Assembly: GCF_008247605.1 (NCBI RefSeq) | Contig: NZ_CP043420.1 | Location: forward strand, 2,356,001-2,420,000 | Source: Kushneria phosphatilytica | GTDB lineage: Bacteria; Pseudomonadota; Gammaproteobacteria; Pseudomonadales; Halomonadaceae | Direction of reading: 5' to 3' | DNA: 64,000 nucleotides | Shown here: one piece after another, positions 15,566 through 24,018 of the stretch | Position numbering within the stretch: the first letter of the stretch is position 1 | Layout of the letters: each line of letters opens with the position of its first letter | The notes under the pieces: model-generated | Databases searched by the model: none | What the model was told of the DNA's origin: nothing | Seen by the model: only the letters and a program-made list of their open reading frames with translations | Translations under genes and position numbers: made by a program

Positions 15566-17122
15566 TCAGGTCACCGGGGCCGGATTGAAGAGTGCCAGAT
15601 CGTTTTTCAGCCCCCAGCGCTCGGTCCAGGTCGGCTTCCCACTGGCAGTCGCGATGATGGCTTCGAACATCTGCTGCCCTACTTCCTCGATACTGGCCTC
15701 TCCCATCGCTACCTGACCGGCGTTGATATCCATCAGGTCGTGCCAGCTCTGCGCCAGAGCATTACGCGTGGCCACCTTGAGCACCGGTGCCATGGCCAGG
15801 CCGTAAGGCGTACCGCGTCCGGTCGAAAACATATGGATATTCATGCCGGCAGCCAGCTGCAGCGTGCCACAGATGAAATCGCTGGCAGGCGTGGCGGCAA
15901 AATTCAACCCCTGGACCTTTACCCGTTCCCCGGGTGGTACAACCCCGCTGATCGGGCGGGTACCTGATTTGACGATCGAGCCCAGCGCCTTCTCGACAAT
16001 GTTGGAGAGACCACCGCGCTTGTTGCCCGGTGTGGTATTGGCACTGCGATCGACACCGCCACCCGCAAGGTAATGATCATACCAGGCCATCTGATCGATC
16101 AGTTGTTGCGCTACTTCGTGATTGGCAGCGCGGGCCGTGAGCAGATGGATGCCATCGCGCACTTCAGTGACCTCGGAAAACAGCACCGTAGCCCCCGCCC
16201 GCACCAGCAGATCAGTGGCATGGCCGATCGCCGGGTTGGCAGTCACCCCGGAAAAGGCATCACTGCCACCACACTGTACCCCGACCACCAGCCCCGACAA
16301 CGGGCATGGCTCTCGTCGACGCTCATTGAGTACAGCGAGTTTCTGGCGAGCCATCGCCACAATGGCATCAAGCATCTCGCCGAATCCCTCATGTTCCTGC
16401 AGACGCACCACCCATTGCTCGGCATCGCTCTGCTCGAAACCCTCTCCACTCAGCAGCCGATCGGGCTGGAGCTTTTCGCATCCCAGACTGACGACCATGG
16501 TTTGTCCGCCAAGATTGGGATTACGAGCGAGATTACGAACGGTACGAATGGGGATCGGCGCATCCGGTGCATCAATGGCCACGCCACAACCGTAGGTATG
16601 GTTCAGTGCGACCACATCATCAACGTTGGGGTACTCCGCCAGCACCTCGCGGCGAATACGCTCCACGGCGTGTTCCAGCACGCTGGCCACGCACTGCACG
16701 GTCGTGGTAATCCCGAGAATATTACGAGTACCCGTGCTGCCATCGGCGTTGCGATACCCCATGAAAGTATGGCCTTCCAGTGGAGATTGCTCGGGCAGCA
16801 CCGCCGTCGCCATCGGCAGGTTATCCAGAGTGGGCGATGCCGGCATTTCCATGACGCCTTCATGCACCCAGCAGCCCTGAGCCAGTGGCTGGCGGGCATA
16901 ACCGATGGCTACGCCATAGCGGATGATCGACTCTTCAATGGCAATGTCCTGCAGGGCCACCTTGTGCCCCTGGGGCACCCATTCGGTCAATTGCAGACCA
17001 TTGTCCAGCGCGGTACCAGCGGGCAGCCCACCATCGTTGGCCACAATGGCCACATTGTCACGCTCGTTGATGCGAAGGATCAACGGCGCCTGCTGACGGT
17101 CGGATTCGATGAGGCGAGTCAT
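15566..17122 (-). CDS. garD: Galactarate dehydratase GarD
   Basis: GarD dehydrates meso-galactarate to 5-dehydro-4-deoxy-D-glucarate. The 518-residue product aligns end to end with E. coli GarD (523 aa): an SAF-like N-terminal domain ([15 protein letters not shown]), then [47 protein letters not shown] and a C-terminus ending [10 protein letters not shown]. Family members use iron. ATG at 17122 has AGGAGG seven bases upstream. It is the last gene of the hexarate unit, and a second copy of the gudD palindrome lies 64-79 bases before its start, suggesting an internal promoter under the same regulator. Confidence 0.96.
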
Positions 17123-17185
17123 CACACTTCCTCCTGTATGCTCGGCGATCCTGTCGTAGTCGAAAGCGCCAGAGCCTGAATGCGA

Positions 17186-17201
17186 TGAATGACGTCATAC
17201 A
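17186..17201 (-). promoter_or_regulatory. Second copy of the hexarate-regulator palindrome, upstream of garD
   Basis: On the minus strand this reads TGTATGACGTCATTCA, which is TGTATGA-N2-TCATxCA and differs from the gudD copy in one arm base and one centre base. It lies between the regulator gene and garD. The FadR-type regulator encoded next door is the obvious candidate ligand; that is inference. Confidence 0.6.
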
Positions 17202-17250
17202 GGAAGCGATCCACCAGGACACCTCGGGGCAGCTGGTCACCGACCTGAAG

Positions 17251-17994
17251 TCAGTCGGATTCGCCGGGGGTTTCCAGTCGGCCGTGGTAGAGCCGCCAGG
17301 AGCGCCCCAGGTGATCCTGCATTGCCTGTCTGGCTCGGTCAGGCTCGCAATCGACAATGGCGCGATAAATCGCCCGATGTTCTTCCAGTACATTCTCCAG
17401 GTAACGCATCATTTCATCACGCGCCCCGAGGTCTTCAACGTGCGAACGCGGCACCATGGTTTCGCCGAAAAAGTCGTAGAAGCGCAGATAGACATGATTG
17501 CGACAGGCGGCACCGATCAGGCGATGGAACTCGAAATCCTCCTGCTTGGCCAGGTGTCGGTCGCCGATACTGCGCGCAAAGCGTGCCAGATTCTCCTCGA
17601 GTGCGCTGATGTCCTGCTCAGTGCGGCGCTGCGCCGCCAGCCCGGCCGCCTCGGTTTCAATCGGAATCCGAAACTCCAGAACCTGTACGATCTCGCTGGC
17701 CGTTTCCAGGCTCAACCCTTCCGTCATGAAAGACGTTGAGGCATGGCGGCGAATCACGAAGGCCCCGATCCCTCGCCGGGTTTCAACCAGACCGCGGGAT
17801 TTGAGATGCGATACAGCCTCGCGTACCACCGTGCGACTGACATCAAACATCTCTCCCAGCTGACTCTCCGTGGGCAACCGATCACCAACCTTGAGCTGCT
17901 CACGCTGAATCATCTCTTCCAGCGCACCGACCACATAGGCCGACAGGTTCTGACGCCGCCGCGGCGGCGTAAATTGCGAATCAAGCGAGGTCAT
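17251..17994 (-). CDS. GntR/FadR-family transcriptional regulator of hexarate catabolism
   Basis: A 247-residue regulator with an N-terminal winged helix-turn-helix (about residues 15-82: RLPTESQLGEMFDVSRTVVR, then RGIGAFVI) and a C-terminal all-helical FCD ligand domain (about 95-235). The FCD domain has EDFEFHRLIG and later His residues that can form the usual metal or sugar-acid site. It lies between kdgD and garD on the same strand, so the ligand is probably a hexarate or its dehydration product. A shared palindrome before gudD and garD fits repression by this protein. The exact family member is not identified. Confidence 0.9.
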   Translation of the reverse strand: MTSLDSQFTPPRRRQNLSAYVVGALEEMIQREQLKVGDRLPTESQLGEMFDVSRTVVREAVSHLKSRGLVETRRGIGAFVIRRHASTSFMTEGLSLETASEIVQVLEFRIPIETEAAGLAAQRRTEQDISALEENLARFARSIGDRHLAKQEDFEFHRLIGAACRNHVYLRFYDFFGETMVPRSHVEDLGARDEMMRYLENVLEEHRAIYRAIVDCEPDRARQAMQDHLGRSWRLYHGRLETPGESD

Positions 17995-18103
17995 GAAGGC
18001 ATCCGCTCAAAAGAAATTGGACTGTTCCCGAGCTGCCAGTATCACCTCCCGTGCAGGGCGGGGTCCAGGTGATGCCCCATGCGTCTGCCACATGATGCCC
18101 GTG

Positions 18104-19027
18104 TTATTGCGTCAATTGCCTGAAAATACCGATCAGCCGTTCCAGCTCTGCGCGTTCCTCGTCGGTTGGCATCACCAGGGGGGTACGCACACTGCCACCG
18201 GGATGGCCAATCAATTCGGCACCGGCCTTGATCAGACTGACCGCATAGCCGGGCTTGTGACCACGCAGTTCAACAAAGGGCACGAAGAATTTCTCGACCA
18301 GCCGAGACACCTGGGTAGTGCGCCCTTCACGCAACAGTCGATAGAACTTCAACGCTTCTTCCGGCACGAAGTTGAAGACCGCCGAGGAGTAGGTATTCAC
18401 ACCAATTGCCATATACGCTTCAGCAAAAATCTCTGCTGTCGGCACGCCCCCGATATAAACCAGCCGATCACCGACCGTCTTGATGATGCTATTGAGTGCC
18501 TGGATGTTGCCGACACCGTCCTTGAAACCAATCAGATTGGGACACTGGGTCGTCAGGCGCAGTACCGAAGCGGCATCGAGCTGACCATTGGCACGGTTGT
18601 AGAGCACCACACCCAGTTTTGTGGAAGCACAAACACGAGTGACATAATCGACCAGCCCTTCAGGAGGACACTCGGTCAGGTAGGGCGGCATCAGCAGCAG
18701 CCCGTCGGCGCCCTTCTCTTCAGCGATGCGCGCCTGTTCGATGGCATCTCGCACGTTGCGACCGGCACTGGACAGAATCGGCAGGTGACCACCGCAGATA
18801 CGCACCGCCGAATTCACCACGGTTTCCACTTCTCTTGTGGTCAGTGAGAAGAATTCCCCGGTACCGCCTGCCACAAACAAAGCCGACACCTCATACTGCC
18901 TGAGCCACTCCAGACGTGCCTCATAGGAGGGCGCATCGAATTCGCCGGCTGTATCGAAATCGGTAATCGGAAAGGAGAGCAGACCATCGCCGAGAGCTGC
19001 GCGCAGTTGCTGATGATCGAAATGCAT
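18104..19027 (-). CDS. kdgD: 5-dehydro-4-deoxyglucarate dehydratase KdgD
   Basis: This enzyme of the DHDPS/NAL aldolase superfamily decarboxylates and dehydrates 5-keto-4-deoxyglucarate to 2,5-dioxopentanoate, which enters the TCA cycle as alpha-ketoglutarate. In the 307-residue product the fold motifs are AGGTGEFF (about 53-60), the active-site Tyr in VLYNRANG (Y143) and the Schiff-base lysine in GFKDGVGN (K169). AGGAGG followed by CCTAC stands directly before ATG 19027; an ATG eight codons earlier lacks such support. It lies between gudD and the regulator and completes the oxidative route, since no garL/garR-type aldolase or reductase is nearby. Confidence 0.94.
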   Translation of the reverse strand: MHFDHQQLRAALGDGLLSFPITDFDTAGEFDAPSYEARLEWLRQYEVSALFVAGGTGEFFSLTTREVETVVNSAVRICGGHLPILSSAGRNVRDAIEQARIAEEKGADGLLLMPPYLTECPPEGLVDYVTRVCASTKLGVVLYNRANGQLDAASVLRLTTQCPNLIGFKDGVGNIQALNSIIKTVGDRLVYIGGVPTAEIFAEAYMAIGVNTYSSAVFNFVPEEALKFYRLLREGRTTQVSRLVEKFFVPFVELRGHKPGYAVSLIKAGAELIGHPGGSVRTPLVMPTDEERAELERLIGIFRQLTQ

Positions 19028-19097
19028 GTAGGCCTCCTGGGTAGTAATCATGACGGGGTATTCGCCACGAACCGTGACTTATCCTGTCGGCGCTGGA

Positions 19098-20435
19098 TCA
19101 ACGCACCATCGCCGGCCGCCCGGGATCAAAACGCCAGCCCGGAATCAGATACTGCATGGCTTTGGCATCATCGCGTCGTCCACCCTGCAGTGAGCGATAG
19201 CGCTGATGCGCCTGTTCGACGGCCGCCATATCAAGTTCAATGCCCAAACCCGGCATATCGGGAATGGCAATCCGGCCATCGCGAATTTCCAGCGGCGAAC
19301 GGGTCAATCGTTGACCTTCCTGCCAGATCCAGTGCGTATCGATGGCCGTCGGGCGCCCTGGTGCTGCGGCACCGACATGAGCAAACATGGCCAACGAGAT
19401 ATCAAAGTGATTGTTGGAATGGCATCCCCATGTCAGCCCCCAGTCATTACACAGCTGCGCTACACGTACCGCACCGCTCGGGGTCCAGAAATGCGGATCG
19501 GCCAGCGGGATATCGATGGCGCCCTGCATGACGGCGTGGCCAAGCTCACGCCAGTTGGTGGCAATCATGTTGGTCGCCACCGGCAATCCGGTGGCCCGCC
19601 TGAACTCCGCCATGATCTCGCGCCCCGAGAATCCCTGCTCGGCGCGACATGGATCCTCGGCATAGGCCAAGGTATCGCCGAGCCCCCGGCAGAGTTTGAT
19701 GGCCTCATCCAGTTGCCACGCGCCGTTGGGATCGACCGTAATGCGGGCCTCGGGGAAAGCGGTGGCCAGCGCCTGTACGGTTTCGATCTCCTGCTCACCG
19801 GATAGCACCCCACCCTTGAGCTTGAAATCCCGGAATCCATAGCGATCACGAGCTGCCTGAGCCAGCCGTAATATGGCGTCGGCATCCAGGGCCGGTTCAT
19901 TGCGAATTCGATACCACTCGTGTGCGTCTTCAGCGCTTGAGCGATAGTCCAGATCGGTCTGACGTCGATCGCCGAGGTAAAAAAGATACCCCAGCACCGC
20001 GACCTCCCGACGCTGCATCCCCTCTCCCAGCAGCTCGGCCACAGGCACCCCGAGGAACTGCCCCAACAGATCCAGCAACGCGGATTCGAGCGCTGCCACG
20101 GCATTGATCCGTAGCTCGAATGTCCAGGCACCGTCACCGGTGGCTTCAAAGTCCGCTGCCTGCTGACCTCGGTGGAGTTCGCTGACGATACGGTTCAGCC
20201 GCGCGATCGATTGTCCTTCTACTCGACCAATGGCATGACGCAGGGTACGTTCGATGACCTCGCCTCCCGGTGCCTCACCAACGCCCACATGACCGGCGTT
20301 ATCCTCCAGAATCACCAGATTGCGAGTAAACACGGGACCATGAGCACCGCCGATATTCAGCAGCATGCTGTCCTCTCCGGCGACCGGTATCACCTTCATG
20401 CTCGTTACGCGAGGGGCATCGTGAAACGTCGTCAT
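19098..20435 (-). CDS. gudD: D-glucarate dehydratase GudD
   Basis: GudD is an enolase-superfamily enzyme that dehydrates D-glucarate (and L-idarate) to 5-dehydro-4-deoxyglucarate. The 445-residue product has the same catalytic numbering as the E. coli enzyme: K205 and K207 in FKLKGG, metal ligands D235 and N237 in VDPNGAW, E260 in YAEDPC and H339 in GCHSNNHFD. The N-terminal capping domain is complete. It is the first gene of the unit. A promoter and an overlapping palindromic operator lie 45-90 bases upstream. Confidence 0.96.
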
Positions 20436-20646: not shown

Positions 20647-20670
20647 AATACTGTATTTAAATACAGTATT
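20647..20670 (+). promoter_or_regulatory. LexA/SOS box upstream of umuD-like gene
   Basis: The core CTGTATTTAAATACAG (20651-20666) fits the LexA consensus CTG-N10-CAG, and the symmetry extends to a perfect 24-bp palindrome. It lies about 40 bases before the umuD-like start. Such complete symmetry suggests tight LexA binding and late SOS induction, as for E. coli umuDC. Confidence 0.92.
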
Positions 20671-20708: not shown

Positions 20709-21164
20709 ATGGAGATCACACTGCTGGGGGCACCCCCTGCCAACGCTACCCACGGTTGCCTGCGGCACACCCGAACTACCAGCGGTTTTCCCTCGCCCGC
20801 TGATGAGTTTCGCGAGCCACCACTTGGCTATGGCGATCTGTTCGGCGCCGAATCAGCTTCGCTATTCTTCATGCGCGTCCGCGGCGCCTTACCCGAGCAG
20901 GGCTGGCACGATAACGACATTATCGCTGTCGAGCGGGATGCCTTTCCGTTCGATGGCGCCCTGGTCGTCATTGCACTGGATGGTGAACTTACCCTTCGTC
21001 AGCTGACGTGCCGACAGCAGCAATGGTGGCTATGCGCCCCGGGTGGTCATTATGCCGATCTCCCCATCGCCGGGAATGTACAGGAGCGGTTATGGGGTAT
21101 CGTTCGTCACCACATTCACAGTTATTTCGATGAACATCAGCGAAGATCGGAGATCCGCATCTGA
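20709..21164 (+). CDS. umuD: UmuD-like protein lacking the Ser-Lys catalytic dyad
   Basis: UmuD normally self-cleaves with RecA help to give UmuD', which joins UmuC in DNA polymerase V. This 151-residue protein keeps the cleavage-site region SGFPSPADEF (E. coli CGFPSPAADY) and the core around residues 49-99 in E. coli numbering. Where E. coli has GDSM with Ser60, it has RGALPEQG, with no Ser between residues 52 and about 140. Lys97 in DGEFTVKKL is Arg97 in DGELTLRQL. The protein contains no lysine at all. ATG 20709 has GGAG with a 6-base gap. It lies 15 bases before umuC. It may act as a non-cleavable or permanently UmuD'-like partner. Confidence 0.85.
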   Translation: MEITLLGAPPANATHGCLRHTRTTSGFPSPADEFREPPLGYGDLFGAESASLFFMRVRGALPEQGWHDNDIIAVERDAFPFDGALVVIALDGELTLRQLTCRQQQWWLCAPGGHYADLPIAGNVQERLWGIVRHHIHSYFDEHQRRSEIRI

Positions 21165-21179: not shown

Positions 21180-22466
21180 ATGTATGCGCTGATAGACTGC
21201 AATAACTTCTACGTCGCTTGCGAGCGATTGTTCGATCCCGCCTTATATGGCAAACCGGTAGGGGTACTCTCCAACAACGATGGCTGCATTGTGGCACGCA
21301 GCGAGGAGCTCAAGGCGCTCGGTGTCGCCATGGGGACGCCTGCCCATCTGCTACCACCGGAGCTGGCACACCATGGACTGGTACTGCGCTCATCGAACTA
21401 CACGCTCTACGGAGATCTCTCCGAGCGGGTCCAGCGAGTGCTCGCCGCCGAAGTCCCGGAAGTCGACCCCTACTCCATCGATGAATATTTCCTCGACCTG
21501 AAAGGCGTCACAAAACCGCTCGAGCCCCTGGCCCAACGACTTGCCGGCCTCGTGGAGCGTCGGGTTGGTATTCCGGTCTCGGTCGGCATAGCGCCGACAC
21601 GCACCCTGGCCAAGCTGGCCAATCATTGCGTAAAGCAAAGAAATCGCCATCACAGCGACATACAGGTCTTTCGCAAGGCCGATGATCCCGGCCTGATTCA
21701 GTGGCTGCAAAACATGCCACCAGGTGCAGTATGGGGGATCGGCGGACGGCTGAATGCCCGCCTGATGGCTCTGGGCATTGATACGGCTTTCAAACTGCGT
21801 AATGCCTCTCCTGGCTGGTTACGTCATCGTTTCAATGTCGTATTGGCACGCACTGCCAGCGAGTTGAAAGGCGACGATTGTCTGGCACCGGATGGCCTGC
21901 TTGCCGCTCGCCACAGCATCCGTTGCTCGCGCTCTTTCGGGCGAGTACTGACAAACCCCGCGCAGTTGGGAGAAGCACTGCGTTTTCATTGCGAACGGGC
22001 CGGCGTCAAGCTGCGCCGTGAAGGCCAGCTGGCCAGCCTGATCGGAATCAGCCTGACCCCGGGCCCTTTCGACCGGACACCACGTGGACGCAACGGCCAT
22101 CGCCATGGCCTCTGTCACTGGCTAACGCTTCCCTTCCCGACAGCCGATACAGTCCGCCTCAACCTTTATGCACAACAGCTACTGAAACACCTTTATCAAC
22201 CCGGTCAGCGTTATCAGAAAATTACCGTCATGCTGGAAGGGCTTTCACCCCAACAGGGTCATCAGCCCAGTCTGTTCGAGGGCAGCGAATCGGGTCAGCG
22301 TTTACAACTGATGAAAACGTGGGATGACATCAACCAGCGCTATGGCGCCACAGCTCTGACCCTGGGGCCACGCACCAGCAAGGCCGACTGGCAAATGCGC
22401 AGCGCCCGTCGATCCGGACGTTTCACGACCCATATGGCTGAACTGCCACAGGTCACCCTTCGCTGA
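21180..22466 (+). CDS. umuC: Translesion DNA polymerase V catalytic subunit UmuC
   Basis: This Y-family polymerase copies past DNA lesions in the SOS response. The 428-residue product aligns with E. coli UmuC (422 aa). Metal-binding D6 (LIDCNNFYVACE) and D101-E102 (YSIDEYFLD) are intact. The little-finger region continues to a beta-clamp binding motif QPSLF at 362-366. Nothing suggests loss of activity. It shares a transcript with the umuD-like gene under the LexA box, and AAGAGG precedes the ATG. Confidence 0.96.
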   Translation: MYALIDCNNFYVACERLFDPALYGKPVGVLSNNDGCIVARSEELKALGVAMGTPAHLLPPELAHHGLVLRSSNYTLYGDLSERVQRVLAAEVPEVDPYSIDEYFLDLKGVTKPLEPLAQRLAGLVERRVGIPVSVGIAPTRTLAKLANHCVKQRNRHHSDIQVFRKADDPGLIQWLQNMPPGAVWGIGGRLNARLMALGIDTAFKLRNASPGWLRHRFNVVLARTASELKGDDCLAPDGLLAARHSIRCSRSFGRVLTNPAQLGEALRFHCERAGVKLRREGQLASLIGISLTPGPFDRTPRGRNGHRHGLCHWLTLPFPTADTVRLNLYAQQLLKHLYQPGQRYQKITVMLEGLSPQQGHQPSLFEGSESGQRLQLMKTWDDINQRYGATALTLGPRTSKADWQMRSARRSGRFTTHMAELPQVTLR

Positions 22467-22621: not shown

Positions 22622-23215
22622 ATGGGAATGAAAGGCCAACGCACGGCTGCCGGCCTGATAGCGGCAGCAATGACCATGACTCCAATGGGGGTTGCAGTCG
22701 CACAGCAAACGCAGAATGACACCGGGGACCCATCGGCCGATGCTGTCCATCCGGTGATCAAACATTATGGCGGCGTTATTCCGCGCAGCGATGACAACAC
22801 CAACCAACCCGATCCTGACAAAACCTATCATGTGATCTTCGATGTCTTTCACGGCGGAGATGATACTTCGAAGCTCAACCCGCAGCTGGATCGTCTGGCA
22901 CGAGCAGTCAATGTGTTTGCCGCGCATGGTGTCGATCCCGAACATCTCGACTTCGTGGCCATTCTGCATGGTGGTTCGACCCGCAGCGTCATGACCGAAA
23001 AGGCCTACCAGCAACGATTTGGTGTAGAGAATCCCGATACCGATATCATTGCTGCGCTGGAAAAGGCCGGCGTACAGGTAGAGGTCTGCGGGCAGGCACT
23101 CAGTCGTCGCAACATCAGCGAGGAAATGGTCAATCAGCAGGTCGATGTCACGCCTTCTTCCCTGGTCACACTGGCCATGTACGGTCAGAAGGGCTATGCC
23201 TACGAACGGTTCTGA
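22622..23215 (+). CDS. Exported DsrE/DsrF-like protein, copy 1
   Basis: A 197-residue protein with a signal peptide (about residues 1-27, ending AVAQQ). The mature part has a DsrE-type alpha/beta pattern: YHVIFDVFHGG, LARAVNVFAAHGV, DFVAILHGGSTRSVM and VEVCGQAL with the single conserved cysteine, then MYGQKGYAYERF. Cytoplasmic DsrE proteins relay sulfur, but exported members are uncharacterised and the role here is unknown. The next gene is a paralogue. It lies 155 bases after umuC with no clear terminator between, so SOS read-through is possible but unproven. Confidence 0.82.
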   Translation: MGMKGQRTAAGLIAAAMTMTPMGVAVAQQTQNDTGDPSADAVHPVIKHYGGVIPRSDDNTNQPDPDKTYHVIFDVFHGGDDTSKLNPQLDRLARAVNVFAAHGVDPEHLDFVAILHGGSTRSVMTEKAYQQRFGVENPDTDIIAALEKAGVQVEVCGQALSRRNISEEMVNQQVDVTPSSLVTLAMYGQKGYAYERF

Positions 23216-23255
23216 AATCGTTCGATAATATCACTCCGGGGGCATGATATTCCCA

Positions 23256-23274
23256 CCTGACAGGTACTGTCAGG
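23256..23274 (+). repeat. Perfect short inverted repeat between the DsrE-like genes
   Basis: CCTGACAG (23256-23263), loop GTA and CTGTCAGG (23267-23274) form a perfect 8-bp stem. No T-run follows, so it is a weak terminator candidate or an operator for the second DsrE-like gene. Confidence 0.45.
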
Positions 23275-23430
23275 CGCTGGATGGCCCTGATGAGGTTCCA
23301 CGTCACGGTCCCATGCCCCTTGCTGGCCTGGTAATATATACCAATGAAGCCGATCGGGTCGCATCATGTGCCTGTGACCCGCATTCAATGACCCACCTTG
23401 ACCTTCAGCCATAAACAAGAGACCACCCCC

Positions 23431-24018
23431 ATGGGAATAACCCGTCACTGGAAGCTTATCGCACTTTTCGGTGCTGCCCTTTTAATGCTATTGGCCGGCC
23501 TGATTGCCGCTCAGGAGGTGCAGGATCCCAATCCGCCACTTGAAATGGAGTACCCGGCAATCAGCCAGTATGGTGGAGTGGTCCCCCGAGACGATGACAA
23601 TGAAGATGTGCCGGCTGTCAATGGCACCTACAAGGTCATTTTCGATGTCGACAGCGGCGCTTCCAGTCCATCGCAACTCAATCCCGGCCTCAAACGGGTT
23701 GCCAGAGCCATCAACGTTTTTGCGGCGCACGGCGTCAAGCCGGAACAGCTGCAGTTCGTCGCCATCATTCATGGTGCCGCTACCCGCAGTGTCATAACGG
23801 ACCAGACCTATCGGGCCTGGTTCGATACGGATAACCCCAATACCGGATTGATCACGGCGCTGAAGAAGGCGGGCGTCAAGGTCGAAGTCTGCGGTCAGGC
23901 GTTAAGCCATTGGCGCATCGGGGATAACGACATCAATCGCGAAATCGCTATTGCACCGGCCGCACTGACCACTCTGGCTATTTATGGCATGCGGGGATAT
24001 GCCTATGAGCGGCTATAA
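23431..24018 (+). CDS. Exported DsrE/DsrF-like protein, copy 2
   Basis: A 195-residue paralogue of the gene at 22622, with roughly half or more of the mature residues identical. It shares YGGVVPRDDDN, YKVIFDVDSGA, RAINVFAAHGVKPE, AAIxRSV-type residues, VEVCGQALSHW and GMRGYAYERL. The N-terminal hydrophobic stretch (about residues 8-28) is a signal peptide or membrane anchor (LIAAQE). The start is ATG 23431 with AAGAGA upstream; an in-frame TTG at 23398 is unlikely. The tandem arrangement indicates local duplication. Confidence 0.82.
   Translation: MGITRHWKLIALFGAALLMLLAGLIAAQEVQDPNPPLEMEYPAISQYGGVVPRDDDNEDVPAVNGTYKVIFDVDSGASSPSQLNPGLKRVARAINVFAAHGVKPEQLQFVAIIHGAATRSVITDQTYRAWFDTDNPNTGLITALKKAGVKVEVCGQALSHWRIGDNDINREIAIAPAALTTLAIYGMRGYAYERL

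Follow-up and report, generated by a model that had tools for sequence, protein, structure and literature searches.

A clade of UmuD homologs lacks the Ser-Lys dyad and the hydrophobic residues before the former cleavage site and may act without cleavage

Our results demonstrate that the UmuD homolog encoded in the 64,000-nucleotide stretch of Kushneria phosphatilytica DNA analyzed here (referred to as the window) has no Ser-Lys protease center, and that this is not an accident of a single genome, as the same kind of loss marks a clade of UmuD proteins in 27 genomes of its family. Our alignments show that both halves of autoproteolysis, the catalytic dyad and the hydrophobic residues before the bond, have been lost in this clade, and sequence comparison likewise shows that the clade retains the S24 fold, an SOS box, and, in the same operon, a umuC whose catalytic residues are intact, and that its genes evolve under purifying selection. 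We favor the reading, with a probability of roughly 0.55, that the clade UmuD would manage its polymerase in the manner of UmuD' without needing cleavage, with transcription as its main control; among the options that a sequence-only reading of the window had offered, this corresponds to a subunit that works uncut.

The features of the window are collected in Table 1. The 151-residue window UmuD contains no lysine at all, and its serines at positions 49 and 51 are followed only by S138. RGALPEQG occupies the position of the GDSM motif, and residue 97 is Arg, so that the sequence-only reading was right both in denying the protein a Ser-Lys center and in placing RGALPEQG at the Ser60 region. Against the Pfam Peptidase_S24 model the protein scores 38.3 bits (cutoff, 23.3), and against the NCBIfam UmuD model NF007621 it scores 66.9 bits, under the curated cutoff of 110. 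By sequence, the protein is closest to the solved structures of Escherichia coli UmuD' and UmuD, with 1umu and 8gmt among the best, and the same two entries were again among the best matches in a fold search with the predicted model of the protein (mean pLDDT, 71.6; pTM, 0.62). Pfam S24, the structure matches, and the tree all indicate common descent and the S24 fold, and the locus is a umuC operon under a LexA box. The Ser-Lys dyad and a cleavable segment (an Ala/Cys-Gly bond with a preceding hydrophobic residue) are absent from the window UmuD and from the clade. The protein is also not of the HumD type, which would start at the UmuD' position without an arm, and it scores 39.3 bits on NF051876, for which the cutoff is 120. 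The clade protein is a UmuD by descent and context, not by its defining proteolysis. A sequencing error as the cause of the dyad loss is very unlikely, because the same kind of loss is present in 26 other genomes.

Table 1. Positions of the umuDC locus and neighboring genes in the window
Feature	Position	Strand	Remarks
LexA-type SOS box, CTGT-N8-ACAG, palindromic	20651..20666	+	CTGTATTTAAATACAG; 42 bases before the umuD start codon
umuD homolog, dyad-less, 151 aa	20709..21164	+	Translation and family models
N-terminal arm, residues 1-25	20709..20783	+	Ends LRHTRTTS before the former scissile bond; translation
Ser25-Gly26	20781..20786	+	Scissile-bond position of E. coli UmuD; alignment
Residues 59-62, GALP	20883..20894	+	Place of the GDSM motif, without Ser60 and Met61; alignment
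Arg97	20997..20999	+	Where catalytic Lys97 is expected; translation and alignment
umuC, 428 aa, Y-family polymerase (IMS, IMS_C, DUF4113)	21180..22466	+	15 bases after umuD; catalytic residues present
QPSLF motif in UmuC	22263..22277	+	Sequence
Two tandem DsrE-like genes	22622-24018		Between umuC and a hemerythrin-like gene
Cluster with a mandelate-racemase-like gene	15566-20435		Between trmA and umuDC

The clade was delimited with a profile built from its 14 first-found members, the window included, by scoring preliminary candidates (at most 14 per genome) in 275 genomes of the family. Clade UmuDs were found in 27 of these genomes and in 7 of 24 genera (g1, g2, g6, g13, g19, g21, and g23), with scores of 194 to 260 bits against 163 bits for the next best match; the 13 clade genomes outside the profile scored 194 to 221 bits. 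Dyad loss played no part in this definition. The membership of the window UmuD itself rests on a search with its sequence alone (the top seven foreign matches, at 39 to 44% identity, were all clade members), on gene order, and on trees that carry long-branch warnings. In the UmuD tree (79 rows), the clade forms one side of a branch with support of 100/97, and the corresponding UmuCs do so in theirs (69 rows; 100/100). The UmuC tree places the canonical genus g5 as sister to the clade (99/92, under a long-branch warning), a relationship that the UmuD tree does not show. The tip branch of the window, the placing of which also carries long-branch warnings, measures 3.0 in the UmuD tree, where it is the longest, and 0.8 in the UmuC tree. 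Among the matches listed, from which 12 genomes lacking any match are absent, all 10 genomes of genus g2 harbor a clade UmuD; in the genus of the window it occurs in 1 of 10 genomes, and in none of the other 9. Outside the family, no genome exceeded 146.5 bits with a 27-row profile among 390 order and 369 class genomes drawn, draws that contain some family members. A scan of genome contigs with the window UmuD detected three loci of distant relatives, all three with an intact dyad, and the matches in plasmids (78 records) and phages (2 records) were all below 60% identity. Aligning related UmuDs, a check that the sequence-only reading had proposed, thus shows a loss common to the 27-genome clade; the dyad is not found in all close orthologs.

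We aligned the 27 clade UmuDs with 51 canonical ones, which come from 58 loci chosen as second copies, genus relatives, and high scorers and are not a random sample. The seven loci dropped were L094, L100, and L101 (no UmuD read), L071, L072, and L106 (duplicates), and L032 (a start unclear at first reading, with the dyad present). Ser60 is found in 50 of the 51 canonical proteins (Ala in 1) and is gone in 25 of the 27 clade proteins, whose column holds D in 10, A in 6, T in 6, S in 2, G in 2, and H in 1. The two clade proteins in which a Ser aligns with Ser60 (L047 and L050) nevertheless lack Met61 and Lys97. Met61 is present in 51/51 canonical and 0/27 clade proteins, and Lys97, present in 51/51 canonical proteins, is replaced in the clade by L (10), Q (7), R (6), or Y (4). 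Among 116 core columns, the gain of entropy in the clade is greatest at Ser60, second at Lys97, and fourth at Met61. G-x-S-M and the Lys are present in all 27 readable sequences from 28 nonclade loci of the order and class draws, six of which repeat earlier loci (five of these within the 51). With these residues missing, self-cleavage by the usual chemistry is excluded in the clade. Outside the clade, one locus in genus g5 (L026, genome G051) encodes a UmuD with GNAM (Ser60 to Ala) and Lys97 kept, with a UmuC of 427 residues, and is perhaps an independent or intermediate dyad loss.

The second half of autoproteolysis concerns the segment around the bond. The claim that the cleavage-site region is kept holds for GFPSPAD after the bond and fails for the residues before it, which depart from the canonical type. 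At P4-P1, a hydrophobic residue is present in 0/27 clade versus 50/51 canonical proteins, and the mean number of hydrophobic residues in P14-P1 is 1.44 versus 4.29; some canonical arms were shortened by the choice of start, a bias that works against these contrasts. Clade arms comprise 12 to 27 residues in all 27 proteins, with starts chosen by the analyst. Ser-Gly stands at the old bond in 27/27 clade proteins; as 19 of the 51 canonical UmuDs share the Ser (and 4 have Thr), we rejected Ser at P1 as a mark of the clade. In LexA, by the account of PMC10020695 as far as available, the cleavage segment is brought into a hydrophobic cleft. When structure prediction was applied to the docking of the arm, confidence in the arm was low for both proteins modeled: pLDDT was below 50 at residues 7 to 24 in the window UmuD (27 rows) and at residues 1 to 9 and 16 to 34 in the control, the canonical UmuD of the same genome (13 rows).

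These features of the segment raise the possibility that a non-S24 protease still converts the clade UmuD to a UmuD'-like form, recognizing R-x-x-S before the bond and GFPSPAD after it. R22, S25, and G26 are invariant in 27/27 clade UmuDs, and the P3-P7' stretch is free of nonsynonymous change (dN = 0) in four clade groups. However, dN is also 0 there in three of six canonical groups, for which reason we rejected a constraint on the segment stronger than the canonical one, and GFPSP, located after the bond, is conserved in canonical UmuDs as well. Moreover, the neighbors most often shared among the 14 neighborhoods compared are trmA-, rarA-, hemerythrin-, and lolA-like genes, and the arm in genus g6 is just 12 to 20 residues long, varying with the start chosen. 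We consider conversion by such a protease, which could be encoded at an unlinked locus, unlikely, and we keep it in view, as the invariant R22 and S25 are not explained by an arm that is merely vestigial.

The LexA box claimed by the sequence-only reading is present before the window umuD. By chance alone, 64 kb would contain the bare pattern about once (mean, 0.88), but an equivalent box, CTG[GT]-N8-ACAG, lies upstream of umuD in 27 of 27 clade members. A search for promoter-like sites returned none, fewer than the chance mean of 1.3. The adjoining umuC is intact, as had also been claimed: the 428-residue product has D6, D101, and E102, together with QPSLF, which we take to be a motif of the beta-clamp-binding type. 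Throughout the clade, umuC stands beside umuD and is full length (27/27; 419 to 428 residues), and all 27 products keep D6, D101, E102, and the Q of the clamp motif. Position 11, presumably the steric gate, is Tyr in 20 clade UmuCs and Phe in 7, the latter being those of genus g19 (L053, L064 to L067, L069, and L070). Ten UmuC columns contrast between the clade and canonical groups.

The number of other Y-family genes in these genomes differs. The genome of the window (G000; 3,624,619 bases in one contig) harbors three, namely, a dinB-like gene, a canonical umuC, and the window umuC. The search for a second umuD that the sequence-only reading had recommended was successful in this genome; the gene (L003) is canonical, with GDSM and Lys, and is followed by its own umuC. 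In 12 of the 27 clade genomes (G010, G014, G029, G033, G037, G047, G059, G069, G117, G120, G121, and G216), just two Y-family matches were found, a dinB-like gene and the clade umuC, and the UmuD profile at an E value of 1e-12 has one match in each of the 12. In three further genomes (G043, G218, and G220), the open frames of the second umuC matches span 169 to 176 residues versus about 420 expected, so that no umuC besides that of the clade seems to be whole. At the loci L086, L089, L090, and L096 of these genomes, the canonical umuC, with open frames of 165 to 176 residues, is apparently broken and a full-length canonical umuD adjoins it.

These counts bear on the proposal that the subunit is an inhibitor only, in which the uncut UmuD2C complex would serve as a brake, exerting checkpoint-like inhibition on replication or on other polymerases, and would carry out no translesion synthesis. 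Such a role recalls the noncleavable E. coli UmuD 8 S60A, which, in the available part of PMC5342242, is described as greatly reducing mutagenesis and, when overproduced, as sensitizing cells to UV. It is weakened by the 12 genomes in which no other umuC was found, by the catalytic residues kept in 27/27 UmuCs with dN/dS values of 0.07 to 0.15, and by the disappearance of the hydrophobic residues that an arms-down form would be expected to carry in its arms. We regard it as somewhat more doubtful than conversion by another protease.

The umuDC genes of the clade are flanked by trmA on one side and by hemerythrin, rarA, and lolA on the other, as seen in 14 neighborhoods (13 clade genomes and the window); the trmA cluster is present in 12/14, the rarA cluster in 11/14, and the hemerythrin cluster in 10/14, counts that include stretches stopping before these genes. 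Beyond lolA there is presumably ftsK. Because the window keeps this chromosomal place, its umuDC was probably inherited rather than recently transferred. The G+C contents of umuD (0.589) and umuC (0.590) are near that of the window (0.585). Among the nine other members of the genus, six were examined; each carries the trmA and hemerythrin genes as flanks and has no umuDC match. The nearest relative (G007) has 1.8 kb of other sequence at this place, in which the best umuD or umuC match has an E value of 0.34; a single 65-base DNA match (E value, 1e-9) corresponds to intergenic sequence ahead of umuD and lies outside umuDC. At least one relative of the two DsrE-like genes is found at the same place in five of the six other genus genomes examined. 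The cluster with the mandelate-racemase-like gene, which we take to include a dihydrodipicolinate-synthase-like gene, is also present in G007 and had no match in the five other genus genomes examined. Models of defense systems had no matches.

The clade umuD genes are under purifying selection. By the Nei-Gojobori method, run with the analyst's own script, their dN/dS values are 0.118 in g2 (10 genes), 0.239 in g13 (4 genes), and 0.168 and 0.108 in g19 (4 and 2 genes), and those of six canonical groups range from 0.054 to 0.224, one group having a saturated dS. The earlier argument against simple decay consequently stands for the clade (0.11 to 0.24), and it is less sure for the window copy, in which conserved columns have been lost. 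The window UmuD is the fastest-evolving clade member and retains 24 of 35 clade-invariant columns, 11 having been lost (35 of 36 are retained in each of the controls L049 and L053). For this reason, and because a canonical umuDC is present elsewhere in the genome, the function of the window copy is less sure than that of the clade. Decay of the window gene would also fit the longest branch in the UmuD tree and the lack of a clade member in nine other genomes of the genus. We nevertheless consider it very improbable, given that the reading frame, the SOS box, and the catalytic residues of UmuC are intact, that the window UmuC retains 144 of 166 clade-invariant columns, and that four other clade groups are under purifying selection.

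Cleavage in trans was examined against the S24 proteins of the clade genomes. The genome of the window has seven S24 matches, including L001, which from its sequence we take to be LexA, and L002, a LexA-like protein without a helix-turn-helix (L002:1465-1944, minus strand; 160 aa with GESM and Lys; 110.1 bits on the lexA model versus a cutoff of 110.95). By score alone, L002-like matches occur in 25 of the 26 other clade genomes. Among the 12 genomes with a single umuC, five (G047, G059, G069, G117, and G216) have three S24 matches each in total, and the remaining seven have 14 further S24 matches, of which the five that were read look like phage repressors or fragments and the nine left unread are open frames of 132 to 797 residues. 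In the 12 genomes without another umuC match, the clade UmuD should have no means of cutting itself, and its processing in trans by a canonical UmuD is unlikely as well. Cleavage in trans by a canonical UmuD, LexA, or an L002-type protein with an intact dyad could draw on the canonical UmuD in the window's own genome and on the two or more S24 matches besides the clade UmuD in 26/26 other clade genomes, but it is the least probable alternative, as the hydrophobic P4-P1 residue of a substrate is gone in 27/27 proteins and no second umuC was found in 12/27, five of these with three S24 matches in total; these counts do not bear on LexA itself.

The mechanism that we propose for a cleavage-independent UmuD begins with its arms. 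With the protease center and a dockable arm gone, the arms would stay free, as in E. coli UmuD 3A (T14A L17A F18A), a noncleavable variant with full-length, undocked arms that is called a UmuD' mimic in the portion of PMC5342242 accessible to us. The same source describes UmuD 18, a noncleavable truncation whose arms are more mobile and which gives mutagenesis at a low but detectable level. The uncut dyad-less dimer may then behave like UmuD', binding and activating UmuC directly, with LexA-controlled transcription, and perhaps protein turnover, replacing RecA*-dependent cleavage as the main control. In E. coli, according to the available text of PMC4552617, both mutagenesis and the release of UmuC from the membrane depend on cleavage, so the clade UmuC would have had to change, and the ten contrasting columns are where such changes could be sought. 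We give about an even chance to the broader proposition that the whole polymerase V lineage has dropped the RecA*-dependent switch, an uncut UmuD constitutively activating a co-evolved UmuC with transcription as the main control.

In E. coli, UmuD cleavage is held to delay and license the mutagenic polymerase V (PMC4552617, as far as its text was available). A natural clade with neither half of the cleavage apparatus raises the question of whether polymerase V requires cleavage or has in it just one control among others, a question made direct by the 12 of 27 genomes in which the clade umuDC is the sole polymerase V found. The ten contrasting columns allow one to ask, in addition, which changes in UmuC make cleavage dispensable. 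If our reading is true, this lineage probably runs polymerase V without the safety catch of cleavage. Among the titles and the starts of abstracts that we searched, with subscription papers mostly beyond reach, there was no description of a dyad-less UmuD clade.

The clade system resembles E. coli polymerase V in the S24 fold, the GFPSPA segment, the operon with umuC, and the SOS box; it differs in the lack of Ser60 (25/27), Met61, Lys97, and the hydrophobic residue before the bond, and in having Ser-Gly instead of Cys-Gly. HumD, of the phage P1 type (NF051876), lacks the arm and starts at the UmuD' position. The clade UmuD would share with it an action without a cleavage step, and differs from it in keeping its arm. 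YolD proteins, encoded beside Gram-positive UmuC-like polymerases, have been proposed as UmuD counterparts and, by the partial account of PMC6511836 that was available, form an evolutionarily distinct family. The LexA of Synechocystis, which by the accessible part of PMC7567884 no longer has the catalytic Ser or the Ala-Gly site, is likewise a LexA-fold protein kept after the loss of cleavage features, although it is a repressor, whereas here a polymerase subunit is concerned. UmuD 3A, with its full-length and undocked arm, resembles the clade UmuD in being noncleavable, as we infer for the clade. However, UmuD 3A is an engineered mutant whose named changes spare the dyad, whereas the clade has lost both halves by evolution.
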